Positions 394 through 20,207 of a DNA stretch of 20,819 nucleotides are shown piece by piece (the stretch's first letter is position 1; every line of letters starts with the position of its first letter). The notes under the pieces are model-generated. The model was not told the DNA's origin. It did not search any database and worked only from the letters and a program-made list of their open reading frames with translations. The DNA comes from a virus: positions 1 to 20,819 of the IMG/VR virus record IMGVR_UViG_3300045741_000298. One strand, written 5' to 3'. A program made the translations under genes and the position numbers.

Positions 394-1521
394 CTAAACG
401 TGGAAGTGCACGATACCGTTCTGGTCCAGAGCGTCGCGTTTGATGCGTGGCAGGATGATAGCCATGACCTTGAACAGGTAGATCATGCCTCCTTGCGACT
501 GCCACTCGATCATGCGCGGCTGGATGCCATCCAGCACCTCCGCCGTGTTCGGGTCCAGATTGACCAGGATGACGTTGTTGTCGGGAAGGAAGACGTTGGT
601 CTTGATGTACTTCAGGTTCTCGATCTCCTTCAATCGCGACATGATCGAGTAACCGGCGCCGCCTCCAAGAGTACGAGCGTCGTAGTCGCGCCGGAGAACC
701 TGCGCATACGACGTTGGAACGTACATTCCATACGGGCCAAACTGGTTCTTTGTCTCCATGGCTTGCACCATGGCATTCACGTCAGCGAAAATCTGCGCAG
801 CCGTAGCCGTCCGCCAGTCCGCCGTCAGGGTTCCTGTATTGCGGTAAGGGTACGTCGTCATGCCGTACAGGGTGCCAGCACCGGCACCGGCTGAGAACTG
901 GCCGTACAGGAACAGTTTCTCAATCGTATAGACCACACGCAGCGTAGCGAGCTGCGCCGTCGAGACATCGAGACCAGTACCAGCCTGCCGGGACGCCATG
1001 AGTGTGCGGATGTTCAGCCGGAATCCTTTGTGGATGATCGGGATGGGCATAGAATCCTGCGCGAACTCCATCCGATCGCGCAAATCCGTCGCCTCGCCAG
1101 TCATGTCCACCGTGGCGTCTTCCATGTCGCCAGCGCGGTCCCAGACCATCTGGGTGGTGGCCATCGGGTTCGCGAGCTTGCGCCGCATCCCCTCCGCCAT
1201 CATGTCCGTCACCAGAGTGAACTTACCTCGGGCGACTTGTGTGATGGCCGTGTCGTACTCGCGCCACTCGTTCTCGCGCAGAACCGCCGCCGTTCGCAGA
1301 GCGCCAAGATCGCCATTGGCTGCCAGAAGCCGCGCCGAGAACTCTCCGCTGCCACCACTGCTGTCCACTGCGTCGCGCGCGCCGAGATTGATCTGACGGC
1401 CGCCGGGCAGCATCAGGTCGATCGGAGCATTCGCCATTCGAGCTTCCGGTGTGTTAGCCATGGGGAGCTGGTTCACCGGAACCGCTTTGATTGCAGGCTT
1501 CCCCCGTCCCTTATTCGCCAT
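394..1521 (-). CDS. Major capsid protein, encapsulin/linocin-type HK97 fold
   Basis: Forms the icosahedral phage head shell. The 375-residue product carries a central stretch (IPIIHKGFRLNIRTL, then GLDVSTAQLATLRVVYTIEKLFLYG) that matches the encapsulin/linocin M18 family pattern: 'PLI..F.L..R', an acidic residue before an Ala-rich helix, then 'E..LF.G'. Encapsulins share the HK97 capsid fold, and phage capsid proteins of this type are known. The start is placed at the ATG at 1521, which has AAAGGTGG 8 nt upstream. An in-frame ATG 27 nt earlier (1548) has no ribosome binding site. The place after the decoration protein in the head operon agrees with the call. The N-terminal ~60 residues are Met/Pro/Gly-rich and may be an arm or a propeptide. 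Confidence 0.88.
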   Translation of the reverse strand: MANKGRGKPAIKAVPVNQLPMANTPEARMANAPIDLMLPGGRQINLGARDAVDSSGGSGEFSARLLAANGDLGALRTAAVLRENEWREYDTAITQVARGKFTLVTDMMAEGMRRKLANPMATTQMVWDRAGDMEDATVDMTGEATDLRDRMEFAQDSMPIPIIHKGFRLNIRTLMASRQAGTGLDVSTAQLATLRVVYTIEKLFLYGQFSAGAGAGTLYGMTTYPYRNTGTLTADWRTATAAQIFADVNAMVQAMETKNQFGPYGMYVPTSYAQVLRRDYDARTLGGGAGYSIMSRLKEIENLKYIKTNVFLPDNNVILVNLDPNTAEVLDGIQPRMIEWQSQGGMIYLFKVMAIILPRIKRDALDQNGIVHFHV

Positions 1522-8279: not shown

Positions 8280-11200
8280 ATGAAGATCGCACGCCATTAC
8301 ACGACGACGCTTGCCCAGCTCCCGTTCTCGGAGTGGGACCCCTCCCAAATAGAAAAGCAATTCACCTGGAAATCGTTCCGCGTCTCCATCAAGGAAGGCC
8401 AGCGAACTATCCTGGAGGGAGAAGTCGAAGCTCCCGCCAACTGGACACAGCAGGCTGTTACCATTTTCGCACACAAGTACCTGCGCCGAGCTGGGGTTCC
8501 CACCGCCACTGTTCCGGTCCCGGAGTGCACAGCGCCGGGCGTCCCTCGCTGGCTTCAGCCGAAGCAGCCTGCGCTTGGTGCCAAGCTCGGTGCCGAGGAC
8601 TCCGCCCGACAAGTCTTCCGCCGCCTAGCTGGTATGTGGACGCACGAGGCTTTCGTCGGTGGCTATCTTGTCAGCCCGCAAGCTCCAGACCCCAACAGCC
8701 TCCCCGCCCGTGCGGATGGCACCATTGATTCAAGCCTGTTCGAGCCGTTCGAGCGTGCGCGCGAGGAGAACGCGCGCACCTTCTACGACGAAACCTTCTT
8801 CATGTTGGCCTCGCAGATGGCTGCCCCAAACAGCCCACAGTTCTTCAACACCGGATTGTGGTGGGCATACGGATTAGACGGACACACTTCTTCTCCGTCC
8901 TACAGGGCCCCTTACATCGGTGCAGATGCGGAGGAAATACATGAAGCGTATCGCTATCCACAAACGAGTGCCTGCTTCATCCTCGGTCTGCGGGACTCAC
9001 TTCTCGGAGAAGGGGGCATCCTCGACACGGTTGCGCGAGAAGCGCGCATCTTCAAGTATGGCAGCGGCAGCGGCGTCAACTACTCCTCCCTCCGTGCGAA
9101 GGGGGCTCCACTCTCAAATGGTGGTACAAGCAGTGGCCTCATGTCGTTTCTCAAGCTGTTCGACATCAACGCGGGGACGATCAAGAGCGGCGGCACAACG
9201 AGACGCGCTGCCCGCATGGCGATCGTGGACACGGACCACCCGGAAGCCGAAACTTTCGCCGCGTGGAAGGCCAAGGAAGAGGTCAAGGTTGCCGCAATGG
9301 TACTTGGCGCGAACACCGCCCGGCCAACGGCAGATTTACTTCGTACGGAAGCCCTTGCTTCGATCTCTGCTGCCTCGTTCGAGGGTGAGGCCTATTCCAC
9401 CGTATCCGGCCAGAACGCGAACAATTCGCTACGCGCCTACGACGACTTCATGAACATAATCGACGGCAAGACGACGATACCTACTATGACACCTAGTCAT
9501 GGTAAGTCCGCAATGCAAATGGAGTCCACCAAAGTACACTTGGATGCTCTAAAACTGTGGAGCACTGCCTGCCAAGCCGCATGGGCCTGTGGTGATCCCG
9601 GCTTCCAGTTCCACGATACTATCAACAAGTGGCACACCATCCCGAAACACTCCGCAATCAGAGCGTCTAACCCGTGCTCGGAGTATATGTTCATCGATAA
9701 CTCCTCATGCAATCTAGCCAGTTTGAACTTGGTGAAGTTCTGGTCGGATGGTTTTGAGGATGATGGTACGGGACACACCAAAATCAGCGCGAAGCGATTC
9801 GATGCGGAAGGTTTCGCGTACGCCTGCAAGCTGTGGGCGCTCATCCTGGATGTCTCAGTCGGAATGTCCTCGTTCCCGGACCCACTCGTGGCTGAGAACT
9901 CAGTTAATTATCGCGCGATCGGCCTCGGGTACGCGAACCTTGGCGGCCTCTTGATGTTGGTGGGAGTTCCTTATGATTCGGAAGAAGCCAGAGCTTACGC
10001 TGGTCTGGTCACAGCCATCCTGCATGGTGCAGCGTGGAACCAGTCCGTCTCACTCGCCTCCGACAATGAGCTTGGTCCCTTCCACCAGTTTGGTGATCAC
10101 TCCGATGACGTTCGTCGAGTTCGTAGCCTCCACCGAGACGCCGCTTCAGCCTTGGCAAAAGGACGTGTTGCGGCAGATATTCGCGCTGGGGGGACCGGGC
10201 ACCCGTTTGCGGATTGCTTGGGGTGGGTCACGGACAATTGGTTCCTCGAACCCACCACTGGCGAGCTAGGAAAGCTGGATGCATTCGCAGCCTGCCCCAT
10301 CCGCAATGCCCAGCTCACACTGCTGGCACCTACCGGGACGATCGGCCTCGCGATGGGCTGTGATTCTACTGGGATAGAGCCCATCTATATGCTGACCTCA
10401 CTCAAGAAGCTAGCTGGCGGCGGCGAGCTTCATCAGGAGGTCGGTCTTCTCCGCGAAGCCTTGCGAGGTCTCGGCTACTCGGATTCTGATTGCCACGACA
10501 TCCTGACCTACGTGCAAGGCGTAGGCCGCATGAGCATCGCCACTCCGCACATACGGCGCGAGCACATCCCGGTATTCGACTGTGCTGGCGACATCGTCGT
10601 GGATGGCCACCTGGGGATGATGGCTGCTGTACAGCCATTCCTGAGTGGCGCCATCTCGAAGACGGTGAATCTACCCAGCACTGCGACGGTGGAGGATGTC
10701 TCATCCACCTACATCAAGGCGTGGAAGCTAGGATTGAAAGCGGTTGCGCTCTATCGGGATGGCTGTAAGCTGTCCCAGCCGCTCAGCGCGGTGCCCGCCG
10801 CCCCTGTCGCGAACCAGCAGCTTGCTGCCCAGGACGCGCCCTTGGCGGCGGTTGCATTTCCACCCTCACAGAGCAGCAACACGCCAGCTATAGCCACCAC
10901 ATCTGTCGCGGTCGCAACAATCTCGGGTATGCCGCCTAAAGGCGCCGTTACCCCACGCTACAAACTGCCTGCACGGCGCGGTGGATTTACACAGAAGGTG
11001 GACATCGGTGGACAATCCCTATACCTGCGTACTGGTGAGTACCCGGATGGCCGTCTTGGTGAAATCTTCCTGACGATGGGTCGGGAAGGCTCCACTATGA
11101 AACACTTGCTGGACTCCCTGGCTATCACCATGTCGCTCGGGCTCCAGCACGGTGTCCCCTTGGCGGAGTATGTCGATGCGTTCTCGGATAGCCGCTCTGA

Positions 11201-11618
11201 ACCCAACGGTATCGTGCGTGGCTCCGATCATATCCGCATGTGCTCTTCTATCATGGACTATCTGGTACGGGAGCTAGCCGCCTCGTACATGCATCTGGAG
11301 ACTAACATTCCGATTGCCGTGCAAGCACCGGAACCCTCGTCTCGCGCACCAGCAAACGTCACAGTGATGATCCCATCCACGGACCCGGCAGTGCTGAGCA
11401 AGGTGGAAGGGCTGACAAAGCTGCTGCAAACTCCTAGCACAGAGGACACAGCTATGTCTGTGTTAGGGGCGACGGAGGCGGTTTCTGTAGGTATGCGGAC
11501 ACTATCTCGGCCTAAGTATAGTGGAAATGCGTGCACGCAATGTGGTTCCTTCACACTGCGCAGAAGTGGTACATGCCACGTATGCGATACTTGTGGAGAG
11601 ACGAGCGGCTGTAGTTGA
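8280..11618 (+). CDS. nrdJ: Adenosylcobalamin-dependent (class II) ribonucleotide reductase
   Basis: Reduces ribonucleotides to deoxyribonucleotides using a B12-derived radical, so it needs no oxygen and no separate small subunit; it supplies dNTPs for phage replication. The 1112-residue protein shows APNSPQFFNTG (182-192), the first redox cysteine in QTSACF (Cys232), FKYGSGSGVNYSSLR (258-272), the catalytic NPCSE motif (464-468, Cys466 and Glu468), the partner cysteine in SSCNLASLN (Cys477), and the APTGTIGLAMGCDSTGIEP loop. A TSCPD-type domain follows from about residue 895 (GGFTQKVDIGGQSLYLRTG). A C-terminal cysteine tail (CTQCG..CHVCDTCG, 1085-1106) matches the zinc/redox-relay tail of long NrdJ enzymes. 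SD AGGGGG stands only 4 nt before the ATG, a tight spacing. Confidence 0.95.
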   Translation: MKIARHYTTTLAQLPFSEWDPSQIEKQFTWKSFRVSIKEGQRTILEGEVEAPANWTQQAVTIFAHKYLRRAGVPTATVPVPECTAPGVPRWLQPKQPALGAKLGAEDSARQVFRRLAGMWTHEAFVGGYLVSPQAPDPNSLPARADGTIDSSLFEPFERAREENARTFYDETFFMLASQMAAPNSPQFFNTGLWWAYGLDGHTSSPSYRAPYIGADAEEIHEAYRYPQTSACFILGLRDSLLGEGGILDTVAREARIFKYGSGSGVNYSSLRAKGAPLSNGGTSSGLMSFLKLFDINAGTIKSGGTTRRAARMAIVDTDHPEAETFAAWKAKEEVKVAAMVLGANTARPTADLLRTEALASISAASFEGEAYSTVSGQNANNSLRAYDDFMNIIDGKTTIPTMTPSHGKSAMQMESTKVHLDALKLWSTACQAAWACGDPGFQFHDTINKWHTIPKHSAIRASNPCSEYMFIDNSSCNLASLNLVKFWSDGFEDDGTGHTKISAKRFDAEGFAYACKLWALILDVSVGMSSFPDPLVAENSVNYRAIGLGYANLGGLLMLVGVPYDSEEARAYAGLVTAILHGAAWNQSVSLASDNELGPFHQFGDHSDDVRRVRSLHRDAASALAKGRVAADIRAGGTGHPFADCLGWVTDNWFLEPTTGELGKLDAFAACPIRNAQLTLLAPTGTIGLAMGCDSTGIEPIYMLTSLKKLAGGGELHQEVGLLREALRGLGYSDSDCHDILTYVQGVGRMSIATPHIRREHIPVFDCAGDIVVDGHLGMMAAVQPFLSGAISKTVNLPSTATVEDVSSTYIKAWKLGLKAVALYRDGCKLSQPLSAVPAAPVANQQLAAQDAPLAAVAFPPSQSSNTPAIATTSVAVATISGMPPKGAVTPRYKLPARRGGFTQKVDIGGQSLYLRTGEYPDGRLGEIFLTMGREGSTMKHLLDSLAITMSLGLQHGVPLAEYVDAFSDSRSEPNGIVRGSDHIRMCSSIMDYLVRELAASYMHLETNIPIAVQAPEPSSRAPANVTVMIPSTDPAVLSKVEGLTKLLQTPSTEDTAMSVLGATEAVSVGMRTLSRPKYSGNACTQCGSFTLRRSGTCHVCDTCGETSGCS

Positions 11619-11624
11619 CGCCGC

Positions 11625-11652
11625 TTGACTGAGTGAGGGCGATCTGTAGTGT
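11625..11652 (+). promoter_or_regulatory. Weak candidate promoter just after RNR
   Basis: TTGACT (11625-11630), 16 nt, TAGTGT (11647-11652): five of six -35 positions and the three most conserved -10 positions. It begins 7 nt after the reductase stop and would place a transcript start near 11660, upstream of the hairpin series. It overlaps the left arm of the first hairpin, so the two functions may exclude each other. Confidence 0.25.
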
Positions 11653-11962
11653 GTAACTGCCGGTGTGCCCTCACGCTGGTTTGTGCGCCCGAGTTACGGA
11701 CAGGTCCGCCGCATCTCCTGTCTGGGCAAGGTGTAGACGGTGGTGGTTCGGCATCTTACCCCGCTGGCTGGGTTGCCACCGTCGCACCGCGCATGTAGTC
11801 GCTAAGACGTAGAAACGCATCGCTTTGGCTCCCGGTGACACGCACCGGGATTCTCGGGGGAGAAGGGGGCGACGGGGCAGAGCCATCGGGGGATGGCTGG
11901 AGTGACCCCACAGCGGCCACGGGCCGCAGAAAGGGCTCCTACCTTGCGGCGGGAGCCCTTTC
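11633..11962 (+). ncRNA. Candidate structured RNA: seven consecutive stem-loops
   Basis: The convergent gap after the reductase gene contains seven perfect stems in 330 nt: 11633-11640/11667-11674 (8 bp), 11699-11704/11717-11722 (6), 11736-11743/11776-11783 (8), 11830-11837/11843-11850 (8, 5-nt loop), 11881-11887/11892-11898 (7, GGGG loop), 11913-11918/11922-11927 (6, 3-nt loop) and 11929-11939/11952-11962 (11). No protein-coding frame is convincing here. The plus strand is chosen because a T-G wobble flanks one stem and a weak promoter precedes the array, but orientation is uncertain. It could be a long structured 3' end of the reductase mRNA or a separate RNA. It matches no family I can recognise. 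Confidence 0.4.
11929..11962. terminator. Bidirectional terminator-like hairpin
   Basis: An 11-bp perfect stem (GAAAGGGCTCC with GGAGCCCTTTC) and a 12-nt loop lie between the convergent reductase (plus) and DnaA-like (minus) genes. Neither side has a long T-run, though the stem base supplies CCCTTTC on each strand. Its position is what one expects of a shared terminator for converging transcripts. Confidence 0.55.
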
Positions 11963-12050
11963 GCTTGCTGGTGATGAGCTGAGGGGCGGTTGCGCGTCTG
12001 CTCGATAAAGGCTTGCTCCTATCCGTGTGCGCTGTGGCGGGGGATACCAC

Positions 12051-12698
12051 TTACGCTAGTCGCTTGCCTCCACCAGTCTCAGGCCGTCGCGTCAGGGGCT
12101 TTGCCTTCAGACCAGGGGGCTTGACCTTTCCCGGAGCGTTTCTGCCGTCTCCATGGCGGTCGGAGGTCCGCGTGGCACTGACGCGACGGCCTTTCCGAAA
12201 AATAGTTTGTGTGTTGCTGTTAGTCAACACCGCCTCGCTGCTTTCACCACCGTTCCGCGCCTCCCCGTTGGCTGAACCCTCGTGGAAAGTGTGATCCATA
12301 CCCGCTGGGACGTACCCATTACAACGATCGCAGAGGTGAATTATTCCATCCGCGCGGAGGTCTTGGCGCACAGCCTCGATCGCCTCCCGATGTTTACGGC
12401 CACCATTCTCCAGCTTGCGCTCGACGTGCGCTAGGGTGCGAATGATGGTCGTACGGGTTCGCTGGAAGCGCCGTGCCAGATCATCCAGGTGCATCCCAAG
12501 ATCGTGGCGCAGCAGATAGATAGCCACATGCCGATGTGTCGGGGTTCCGTTTGGGCCACCGCCGCCCTTGGAACGGTCTGAGAGCATGGCTCTTTGGGAA
12601 CAATCGAATCTGGCGGCTGCGGCAGCAAGGTAGGCGTTGATCAGTTTGGCTGTGGGCTTTCTCTTACGGGTGTGCTCGGTGGGAGCTTTTCTGGACAT
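12051..12698 (-). CDS. Standalone DnaA domain IV-like DNA-binding protein with zinc-type motif
   Basis: A 215-residue protein. Residues 20-98 follow the C-terminal origin-binding domain of DnaA: an Ala-rich helix with LSDRSKG (like the LL..R of DnaA), HRHVAIYLLRHDLGMHLDDLARRF (55-78) and TRTTIIRTLAHVERKLE (81-97), corresponding to 'RQIAMYL.R.LT..SL..IG..FG.RDHTTV..A..KIE'. No AAA+ ATPase is present. After it, CDRC (123-126) plus His136 and His139 form a plausible zinc site; the last 70 residues are basic and probably disordered. AGGAGA precedes the ATG by 9 nt. Likely roles are phage origin recognition, interference with host DnaA, or transcription control. It lies downstream of the small-terminase-like gene on the same strand. 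Confidence 0.65.
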   Translation of the reverse strand: MSRKAPTEHTRKRKPTAKLINAYLAAAAARFDCSQRAMLSDRSKGGGGPNGTPTHRHVAIYLLRHDLGMHLDDLARRFQRTRTTIIRTLAHVERKLENGGRKHREAIEAVRQDLRADGIIHLCDRCNGYVPAGMDHTFHEGSANGEARNGGESSEAVLTNSNTQTIFRKGRRVSATRTSDRHGDGRNAPGKVKPPGLKAKPLTRRPETGGGKRLA

Positions 12699-15442: not shown

Positions 15443-15919
15443 ATGAATGCAGACATTCCTGACCGTGATCAACGGTTGCTGGTCGCTCTGGCTTCAATTG
15501 AGGAGCTTGGTAGACGTGATCAAGCAATCCGAGACTTGGCAACGTATCTCGGCGAAGTCATCCAAGCCGGGAGACTCCCAAGTCAACCAATAGCGTCGCA
15601 ACACCTACCGTTGCCGACGCTGGCGACTCCGGTCTCCGGTTGCGCGTTGCCGGAGTCGCCACCTCAAACACGCCAAACGCTTGCGGAACATCCGCTGGCA
15701 TCTCAGTTCCTTTCGTTTCTCCCATATGAATATCAGGGAATAGCAGGGAACGCAATGACCGCAATCGGACATTCTAAACGCGCATTGTTTGTGTGCGTCG
15801 CGGTGGCAATCGTTGCCGGTTTCTACACCGGAAGACTGACTATCCCCGATGCCATACGCAACACCTTGGTAACGTGTCCGGCTACGGTGCAGTCACAACT
15901 GCAATCGCAACCCCAATAG
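15443..15919 (+). CDS. Unknown single-pass membrane protein
   Basis: A 158-residue protein starting 5 nt after the previous stop, with AGG overlapping that stop as the likely ribosome binding site. Residues 1-45 form a charged, probably helical region (RDQRLLVALASIEELGRRDQAIRDL), 46-90 are Pro-rich, and 114-129 (ALFVCVAVAIVAGFYT) form one membrane segment flanked by basic residues. The C-terminus is Gln/Ser-rich. The layout suits a small inner-membrane protein; a holin/spanin-like role cannot be claimed because no endolysin lies nearby. Confidence 0.75.
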   Translation: MNADIPDRDQRLLVALASIEELGRRDQAIRDLATYLGEVIQAGRLPSQPIASQHLPLPTLATPVSGCALPESPPQTRQTLAEHPLASQFLSFLPYEYQGIAGNAMTAIGHSKRALFVCVAVAIVAGFYTGRLTIPDAIRNTLVTCPATVQSQLQSQPQ

Positions 15920-17273: not shown

Positions 17274-17642
17274 ACATCGTTGGAAAGTGTCCGCTCTACG
17301 ACATTTGTGCGGCGCGAGATCACGTTTTTGTGTGTTGACACACCTTCCTATCACGAAAAGTCAGTAAACTGTTGCTAAATTACGCCTTGACAGGACCAGT
17401 TTGCACCAGAACTAACGGTTTTTTCGGTGTACGGCTAGTTTTTTCCGTGTCAAGATACATTTTCGCAACTGGAAAGTGCTATTTTCAGCACACGAATGGT
17501 CAAATTTTGGTACTTCTAGGCATTTTTGCACTGTCAAGTGGTATTCTGGCCACGGATTAGCTATGCATTTTGTACGTATGCGACATTTCGGTCACATATT
17601 GCACCGCACACGTTGCACAACGGCCACAGTTGACAAAACGCA

Positions 17643-17662
17643 GGTCGCGCGCGCGCGCGACC
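17643..17662. repeat. 20-bp perfect CG-alternating palindrome
   Basis: GGTC followed by alternating GC and closing with GACC: a fully self-complementary 20-mer within an otherwise A/T-richer region. Alternating CG of this length can adopt Z-DNA or a cruciform and may be a protein-binding site. It sits at the left edge of the 153-bp duplication. Confidence 0.6.
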
Positions 17663-17908
17663 TACGCACACAGATTACCAAAAAACACCGCAAAAATTGC
17701 GAAATCGGTTCGATGGTACGTCGTATACGACTAGTTTTCGCTACCTTAAAGGTACTTAGAGGGGGTCCGCACAACGAATCAAATACGCGGTCGTGGGTCG
17801 TCGTCAATCGCGACCTACGCGCGCGCATCTATCAAAACAGCCGCAAAAATCTTACGATCAAATCCACGGTCCACAACAGGCGACGTATACGCATGACCTT
17901 AAAGGCCT
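17656..17908 (+). repeat. Diverged 153-bp tandem duplication ending in nuclease gene
   Basis: Anchor blocks recur at a fixed 153-bp offset: CGCGACCTACGC (17656 and 17809), CCGCAAAAAT (17688 and 17841) and ACCTTAAAGG (17743 and 17896). CG(T/A)CGTATACG recurs with a local 9-bp insertion (17719 and 17881). The second copy includes the ATG and first codons of the nuclease gene; in the first copy the equivalent point has lost the ATG. So copy one looks like a decayed duplicate of the gene's promoter-proximal region. Confidence 0.65.
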
Positions 17909-18438
17909 TGAAAGACTGGACGGGACATCGCACGCAGCACGTCACGATCCTCAACCGGCACAGGGACACGAGAGTCTACCTGCTCAAGCCTGGGGAGGAG
18001 CATACCCCTCGCCTACACTGGAGAGCGCGCTGCGACTGTGGCCACGAATGGCTTGTCCCGCACAGCCACATCTCTGAAACCTCCCCCGCCTCATGCAAGG
18101 GCTGCGCACCACGGCATCGTGAGCGCCACCTGTCGCTGCCGAGAGGTAAGCACTACAAGCGCACGCATCCCTCGTATGGGAGCTGGTACAGCATGTGGAG
18201 GCGCTGCACATCCCCAAAGCATGTCAACTATCACCGCTACGGAGGTCGCGGCATAAAGGTCTGCGACCGCTGGCGTGACTTCGATCTCTTCGTTGAAGAT
18301 ATGGGTGTACGCCCACAAGGCTACACGCTAGATCGCATCAACAACGATGCGCACTACAGCCCGGACAACTGCCGTTGGGCGACATATCGCCAGCAGCGTG
18401 CCAATCAACGCCCACCCACGAAACGAATCAAAAGCTAG
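17893..18438 (+). CDS. HNH-like (His-Me finger) nuclease with zinc ribbon
   Basis: A 181-residue protein of a phage-borne family. The N-terminus LKDWTGHRTQHVTILNR (5-22) matches the 'L.DLTG.RFG.LTVL.R' opening, followed by a zinc ribbon CDCG (47-50) and CKGC (68-71). The C-terminal part HPSYGSWYSMWRRC (92-105), YHRYGGRGIKVCDRW (113-127) and LDRINNDAHYSPDNCRWAT (146-164) is the conserved HNH-like core, with Asp147-Arg148 where classical HNH enzymes have D-H. Such proteins are often free-standing homing-type endonucleases. The frame is open back to 17476, but the ATG at 17893 starts exactly at the family N-terminus and is preferred, though its ribosome binding site is weak. The upstream duplication suggests insertion and rearrangement. 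Confidence 0.72.
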   Translation: MTLKALKDWTGHRTQHVTILNRHRDTRVYLLKPGEEHTPRLHWRARCDCGHEWLVPHSHISETSPASCKGCAPRHRERHLSLPRGKHYKRTHPSYGSWYSMWRRCTSPKHVNYHRYGGRGIKVCDRWRDFDLFVEDMGVRPQGYTLDRINNDAHYSPDNCRWATYRQQRANQRPPTKRIKS

Positions 18439-19838: not shown

Positions 19839-20207
19839 ATGACACATCAACTCAACAGTCACGACGTGTGCATTCAGGGTTTCGAGCGGTTGCGCACAAC
19901 GCGTGAGTACATGCTGGCCATCCCAGTTCACAAGGGCATGACGCCCGCAGAAGTGCTCGACGCCTTGAAGGCTGATCTTCAATGCTGTGATCGAGGGGAC
20001 GACTTCGATTGGGATGCAGCGGACGATTGCGTGCGAACCTTTACGGAAGGGCTCAAGCCATATGCATTTGCTGATGTGGAGGATCGTGGCGAGGACGACG
20101 AACCTTGCTACCTGTTCCTCTACATCGAACCCGTCACGATCGAGCCGAACGACTCAGAAAGTCCGCAATCAATCAGCGCACATGAACGTCACGGCGACAA
20201 CCACTAG
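19839..20207 (+). CDS. Acidic unknown early protein
   Basis: A 122-residue protein, MTHQLNSHDVCIQGFERLRT..., with AAGG about 8 nt before the ATG and its own promoter. It has an MTPAEVLDALKADLQC helix near residue 34 and a very acidic second half (CDRGDDFDWDAADDC, DVEDRGEDDEPCYLF). Acidic small phage proteins sometimes mimic DNA, but nothing specific shows this here. No family recognised. First gene of a unit with 20217 and 20483. Confidence 0.8.
   Translation: MTHQLNSHDVCIQGFERLRTTREYMLAIPVHKGMTPAEVLDALKADLQCCDRGDDFDWDAADDCVRTFTEGLKPYAFADVEDRGEDDEPCYLFLYIEPVTIEPNDSESPQSISAHERHGDNH

Follow-up and report, generated by a model that had tools for sequence, protein, structure and literature searches.

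The window analyzed here, 20,819 bases long, is an entire IMG/VR virus record. Its minus strand carries the head genes of a phage (capsid, portal and TerL). On the plus strand, positions 8280-11618 encode a class II (B12-dependent) ribonucleotide reductase recognized by the Pfam domains PF02867, PF08471 and PF12637. The reductase gene converges with a minus-strand gene at 12051-12698, which encodes a short protein with a helix-turn-helix similar to DnaA domain IV (PF08299 at E 1.3e-4, a match below the cut-off; phrog_664). The gap between the two genes covers positions 11619-12050. TerL and capsid are closest to those of Brevundimonas phages (34-37%). The nearest relatives of the reductase are found in a different IMG/VR phage (L008, 49%) and, within GenBank, in Bradyrhizobium phage BDU-MI-1 (38%). 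The DnaA-like protein has no close relatives in the collections searched. A TerL search for close relatives recovered one short contig at 61%, with all others at or below 38%, and the capsid protein was absent from 394 Hyphomicrobiales and 385 alphaproteobacterial genomes in a search run without a positive control. No close relative of the window phage was found in the collections searched, and the RNA described below is a single copy in its lineage. The window also contains an HNH endonuclease gene at 17476-18438 (+), possibly a homing endonuclease, and no tRNAs.

The gap is unusually rich in stems. An earlier note, drawn from the sequence alone, had described seven consecutive stem-loops at 11633-11962, and seven non-overlapping perfect stems of 6-11 bp are indeed present (11633/11674, 11699/11722, 11736/11783, 11830/11850, 11881/11898, 11913/11927 and 11929/11962). 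Among 500 dinucleotide shuffles, stems of at least 6 bp numbered 2.7 on average, and seven were reached in 0.2% of cases (P about 0.002). Folding energy, which the note had proposed to compare with shuffled sequence, is likewise exceptional, as the plus strand has an MFE of -171.5 kcal/mol (z -3.94) and 0 of 100 shuffles folded as low. The minus strand of the same 330 nt reaches z -3.44, so the fold alone cannot tell which strand matters. Local folding is strong at both ends of the region (z -3.1 at 11600-11709 and z -3.8 at 11880-11989) and ordinary in the middle (about -1.3). With most of the energy excess in the outermost 110 nt on each side, energy alone would miss the important part of the gap. 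By z-score, the window folds most strongly elsewhere, at 20021-20130 (-5.3) and 15621-15730 (-4.2), both inside ORFs.

The first stem forms a hairpin (GTGAGGGC/GCCCTCAC, 11633-11674, plus strand) just 3' of the reductase stop codon. It overlaps a promoter-like pair, TTGACT-16-TAGTGT (11625-11652, plus strand), which matches the consensus at 8 of 12 positions and is as weak as the note had judged it. The pair is not listed by a consensus scan and provides no evidence of function, and no strong promoter for the RNA was seen. Three more plus-strand stems at 11830-11927 (TCCCGGTG, AGCCATC and GCGGCC) are probably the 3' part of a longer precursor; the Rfam search of the gap found no RNA family for them. 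The region ends in an 11-bp hairpin flanked by AAAG and CTTT (11929-11962, assigned to neither strand). This hairpin exists as previously described, and it resembles a terminator only loosely, as it has no long U tract and is absent from the list of a consensus terminator scan. By shape it fits a symmetric bidirectional terminator with weak tracts, and it is probably shared in this role by the two convergent genes. It accounts for 34 of about 330 nt. Its Rfam matches to ctRNA_p42d, ncS011 and Xoo2 (17-18 bits) were discarded as generic GC-rich terminator hairpins.

The center of the gap resembles a bacterial small RNA. At the gathering threshold, an Rfam search returned zero families. Under an E-value limit instead, RF02500 (Atu_C6, EcpR1) aligns over its full model length (1-113) to 11684-11793 on the plus strand, with 32.5 bits against a gathering score of 60 bits. 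The E-value of 0.0083 refers to the 601 bases searched against all 4,227 Rfam families; for the whole window against all of Rfam it would rise to about 0.3 (4,227 times the record-wide value of 6.7e-5 for this single family). A covariance model (R1) trained on 39 EcpR1 genes, all bacterial and none from phages, places an EcpR1-like core of two hairpins, SL1 and SL2, at 11683-11795 (+) with 34.8 bits and E 3.2e-6 (whole window, filters off). The runner-up site scores 10.3 bits. The same model detects EcpR1 in 43 of 61 genomes at 36.9-109.9 bits, which puts the score of the window just under that of the lowest host member sampled. The case for the match is built on a gap singled out beforehand, on a model made from hosts only and on an exact copy of the invariant part of EcpR1.

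This invariant part is the 20-nt block CAGGUCCGCCGCAUCUCCUG at 11701-11720 (+), which is identical to the hosts at 20 of 20 positions. Markov models of the window predict about 2.4e-9 occurrences of this block in the gap. Within the block lies the 12-nt target-binding loop UCCGCCGCAUCU (11705-11716, plus strand), the same as loop 1 of host EcpR1. In bacteria, the SL1 block C16-G36 with this loop is identical across all EcpR1 homologs analysed (Robledo et al., PMC4414408). SL1 of the window spans 11687-11727 (+), with a lower stem GCCC/GGGC (11687-11690/11724-11727) and a 6-bp upper stem GACAGG/CCUGUC (11699-11704/11717-11722). All ten consensus pairs are standard, and three differ on both sides from the pair usual in hosts. 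Compensatory changes, which the note had named as a check, are thus present in SL1. The A-U at the second upper pair occurs in no other aligned sequence, and the exact stem version GACAGG...CCTGTC was found in 0 of 84,980 genomes. A stem version seen in none of these genomes, yet with its pairs kept, fits selection on the RNA and not a recent acquisition of host DNA. SL2 follows as a long hairpin with an 8-bp perfect base, GACGGTGG/CCACCGTC (11736-11783, plus strand). Its stem is present, and the UCCUCG motif of the host SL2 loop, a less conserved feature, is absent. Outside the 20-mer, the window RNA is 41% identical to host copies, compared to 58% among the hosts themselves. Divergence around an intact loop block with retained stem pairing looks like selection on an RNA that presents the loop.

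EcpR1 (SmelC291) is a chromosomal sRNA of Rhizobiales. In S. meliloti it is induced by stress and represses dnaA and gcrA by pairing of loop 1 with their mRNAs (PMC4414408). RNase E is needed for its full effect on dnaA and Hfq is dispensable; overproduction leads to cell elongation and raised DNA content (PMC4414408). We found the 20-mer in at least 119 genome-contig stretches, and each title listed names either a Hyphomicrobiales/Rhizobiales organism or a MAG that is unclassified or placed more broadly in the alphaproteobacteria. At 116 of these 119 loci, sequence typical of the ecpR1 neighborhood (PleD, DivK or RpmG) is present. Within one order, 192 of 397 genomes contain the 20-mer, nearly always once. 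Candidate prophage copies in three two-copy genomes (G207, G212 and G406) were rejected, as each appears to be the chromosomal locus repeated within a fragmented assembly. The window RNA lies in a phage context and not downstream of divK-pleD. It also lacks an EcpR1-type Rho-independent terminator with terminal U residues, since no T run follows 11783 and the next candidate hairpin, at 11929-11962, offers TTTC only. Given this genomic place and terminator, the score under the cut-off and the missing SL2 loop motif, we name the RNA EcpR1-like and not a member of the family. The earlier view of a phage non-coding structured RNA beyond a plain terminator gains support from this core. The accompanying statement that the RNA is undescribed and of no recognizable family no longer applies to the central 110 nt.

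A second phage carries a bona fide EcpR1. The 9.4-kb contig L068 (IMGVR_UViG_3300033233_000697) matches RF02500 at 896-1007 with 78.8 bits, above the gathering score, and R1 with 86.3 bits. In a search of 1.33 Mb of related phage DNA with R1, it was the sole match at E<=1. Its RNA begins only a few bases past the stop codon of a gene at 43-891, which is TerL by place and sequence (without a PHROGs match). A portal gene with 47% identity to Rhizobium phages follows about 20 bases beyond the RNA. The RNA is closest to Hyphomicrobiales copies (about 79% over 94-97 nt), is 53% identical to host copies outside the 20-mer, and has no visible independent terminator. In both phages, a phage stop codon directly precedes the RNA, which has the same orientation as the gene; this arrangement suggests expression together with phage mRNAs. 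Nothing indicates that the two phages are related, hence EcpR1-like RNA apparently entered phages at least twice. Relatives of the window's reductase do not carry the RNA. Elsewhere in IMG/VR, searches for the 16-mer at the center of the block and for the loop plus CCTCCTC returned chance matches only. Of the 22 contigs holding the 16-nt center, none besides L068 has more than two extra stem pairs, and R1 gives at most 26 bits on those examined. The block is absent from 50,697 GenBank phage records, and a literature search found no link between EcpR1 and phages.

Chance or decay could in principle produce such a likeness. The gap might encode nothing other than a shared terminator or 3' UTR, with the resemblance to EcpR1 being accidental or the non-functional remnant of, for example, host DNA acquired once. 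Convergent genes with a symmetric hairpin between them would suit this explanation, as would a score under Rfam gathering, and an unrelated match to the 20-mer inside a gene does exist in IMG/VR (L069, 22.7 bits). We consider it very unlikely given the chance expectation of the block in the gap and the independent occurrence in L068. Compensatory stem changes with divergence outside the loop block are also the opposite of what a decaying remnant would show. A further explanation would be integration of the phage at ecpR1, with part of the gene carried as attP. Small RNA genes often serve as integrase sites. The identity is confined to an internal 20 nt, though, and the flanking stem has been rebuilt by two-sided changes. 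Pfam and PHROGs revealed no integrase in the genes examined, and the host loci examined show no prophage interrupting ecpR1, making an attachment site highly improbable.

We suggest that the gap likely encodes a phage-borne, diverged EcpR1-like sRNA that mimics the host stress sRNA and represses host dnaA and gcrA. The RNA would either form the 3' tail of the reductase mRNA or be transcribed from the weak promoter at its start, with the transcript ending at the hairpin at 11929-11962. This hairpin could stop the transcripts of both convergent genes and so spare the RNA from antisense transcription. Folding predictions leave the SL1 loop 99% unpaired in a 110-135 nt core, and its unpaired fraction drops to 0.17-0.53 once the transcript extends to 11962. 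Because the loop is partly paired in longer forms, trimming to a core of about 110 nt may be required, as for EcpR1 in S. meliloti. SL1 would then present a loop identical to that of host EcpR1 to the same targets. Repression of dnaA and gcrA might keep the host cell cycle in check during the time in which the phage reductase provides deoxynucleotides, which would be the benefit to the phage. Several observations weigh against this proposal, including the low identity outside the 20-mer, the score below gathering, the missing UCCUCG, the partly paired loop of longer forms, the single copy in this lineage and the lack of a strong promoter. The Brevundimonas affinity of TerL and capsid also makes the Hyphomicrobiales/Rhizobiales host that we infer less certain, and Caulobacterales are not known to carry EcpR1. 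The DnaA domain IV-like protein at 12051-12698 (-) adjoins an RNA expected to target dnaA mRNA, and the two might both act on host DnaA.

A genuine relative of EcpR1 could instead serve the phage's own mRNAs, for instance in the timing of capsid or reductase expression, and leave host dnaA and gcrA alone. The phage does contain good sites complementary to the loop. The best one elsewhere in the record is GGAUGCGGCG in the capsid gene (1165-1194, minus strand), with -24.7 kcal/mol. Such sites fall within coding sequence and are hardly better than the background to be expected from a GC-rich genome of 20 kb, and the exact keeping of a block invariant in hosts is best explained by host targets. 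Regulation of phage mRNAs is thus an unlikely role. A different possibility is that the RNA acts as a decoy or sponge. It would rival host EcpR1 in binding targets or degradation factors but cause no repression, or capture EcpR1 through the loop of the 3' hairpin, relieving the stress arrest. The end hairpin contains TGCGGCGG (11945-11952), complementary to CCGCCGCA of the SL1 loop. At P 0.03, this 8-mer is near chance level, and the complementarity is possibly an internal kissing or decoy contact. Phage anti-sRNA sponges are known, with AgvB as an example (PMC12197685, PMC4104026). What is conserved in the window is the sense sequence of EcpR1, a mimic rather than a complement, and a sponge seems quite unlikely.

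The proposed mimic of dnaA/gcrA regulation can be placed next to known RNAs. Phages are known to harbor protein genes of their hosts and to encode a small number of sRNAs themselves. The window RNA shares with host EcpR1 the 20-nt SL1 block, the 12-nt loop, the length of the two-hairpin core and the pairing of SL1. It differs in its position after a phage reductase gene rather than at pleD/rpmG, in its diverged stems, in the lack of UCCUCG and of a strong promoter of its own, and in a score below gathering. The EcpR1 of L068 is likewise phage-borne, in sense, just after a phage stop codon and identical in the loop. Unlike the window RNA, it is a full family member, and it lies between the TerL and portal genes of a phage unrelated to this one. 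DicF of the E. coli Qin prophage is also a phage-encoded sRNA, and it blocks host cell division by pairing with host ftsZ mRNA (PMC12197685). DicF differs in target and sequence, and it is not homologous to a core sRNA of the host. Like the window RNA, AgvB and further phage anti-sRNAs are phage RNAs directed at the host sRNA network. AgvB mimics targets, whereas the window RNA would mimic the regulator itself.

A wider scenario, for and against which we see the balance as even, is that Hyphomicrobiales phages repeatedly captured EcpR1. In the window phage, the captured RNA would have been rebuilt down to loop and fold, freed of host control, and used to arrest the cell cycle via dnaA and gcrA. 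If true, this would provide a clear example of a phage imitating a core regulator of its host at the level of RNA, with the seed loop kept exactly and the rest diverged. Rfam gathering cut-offs can hide such mimics. The finding makes it possible to test directly whether phages use an RNA to restrain the replication that DnaA and GcrA drive in alphaproteobacteria.
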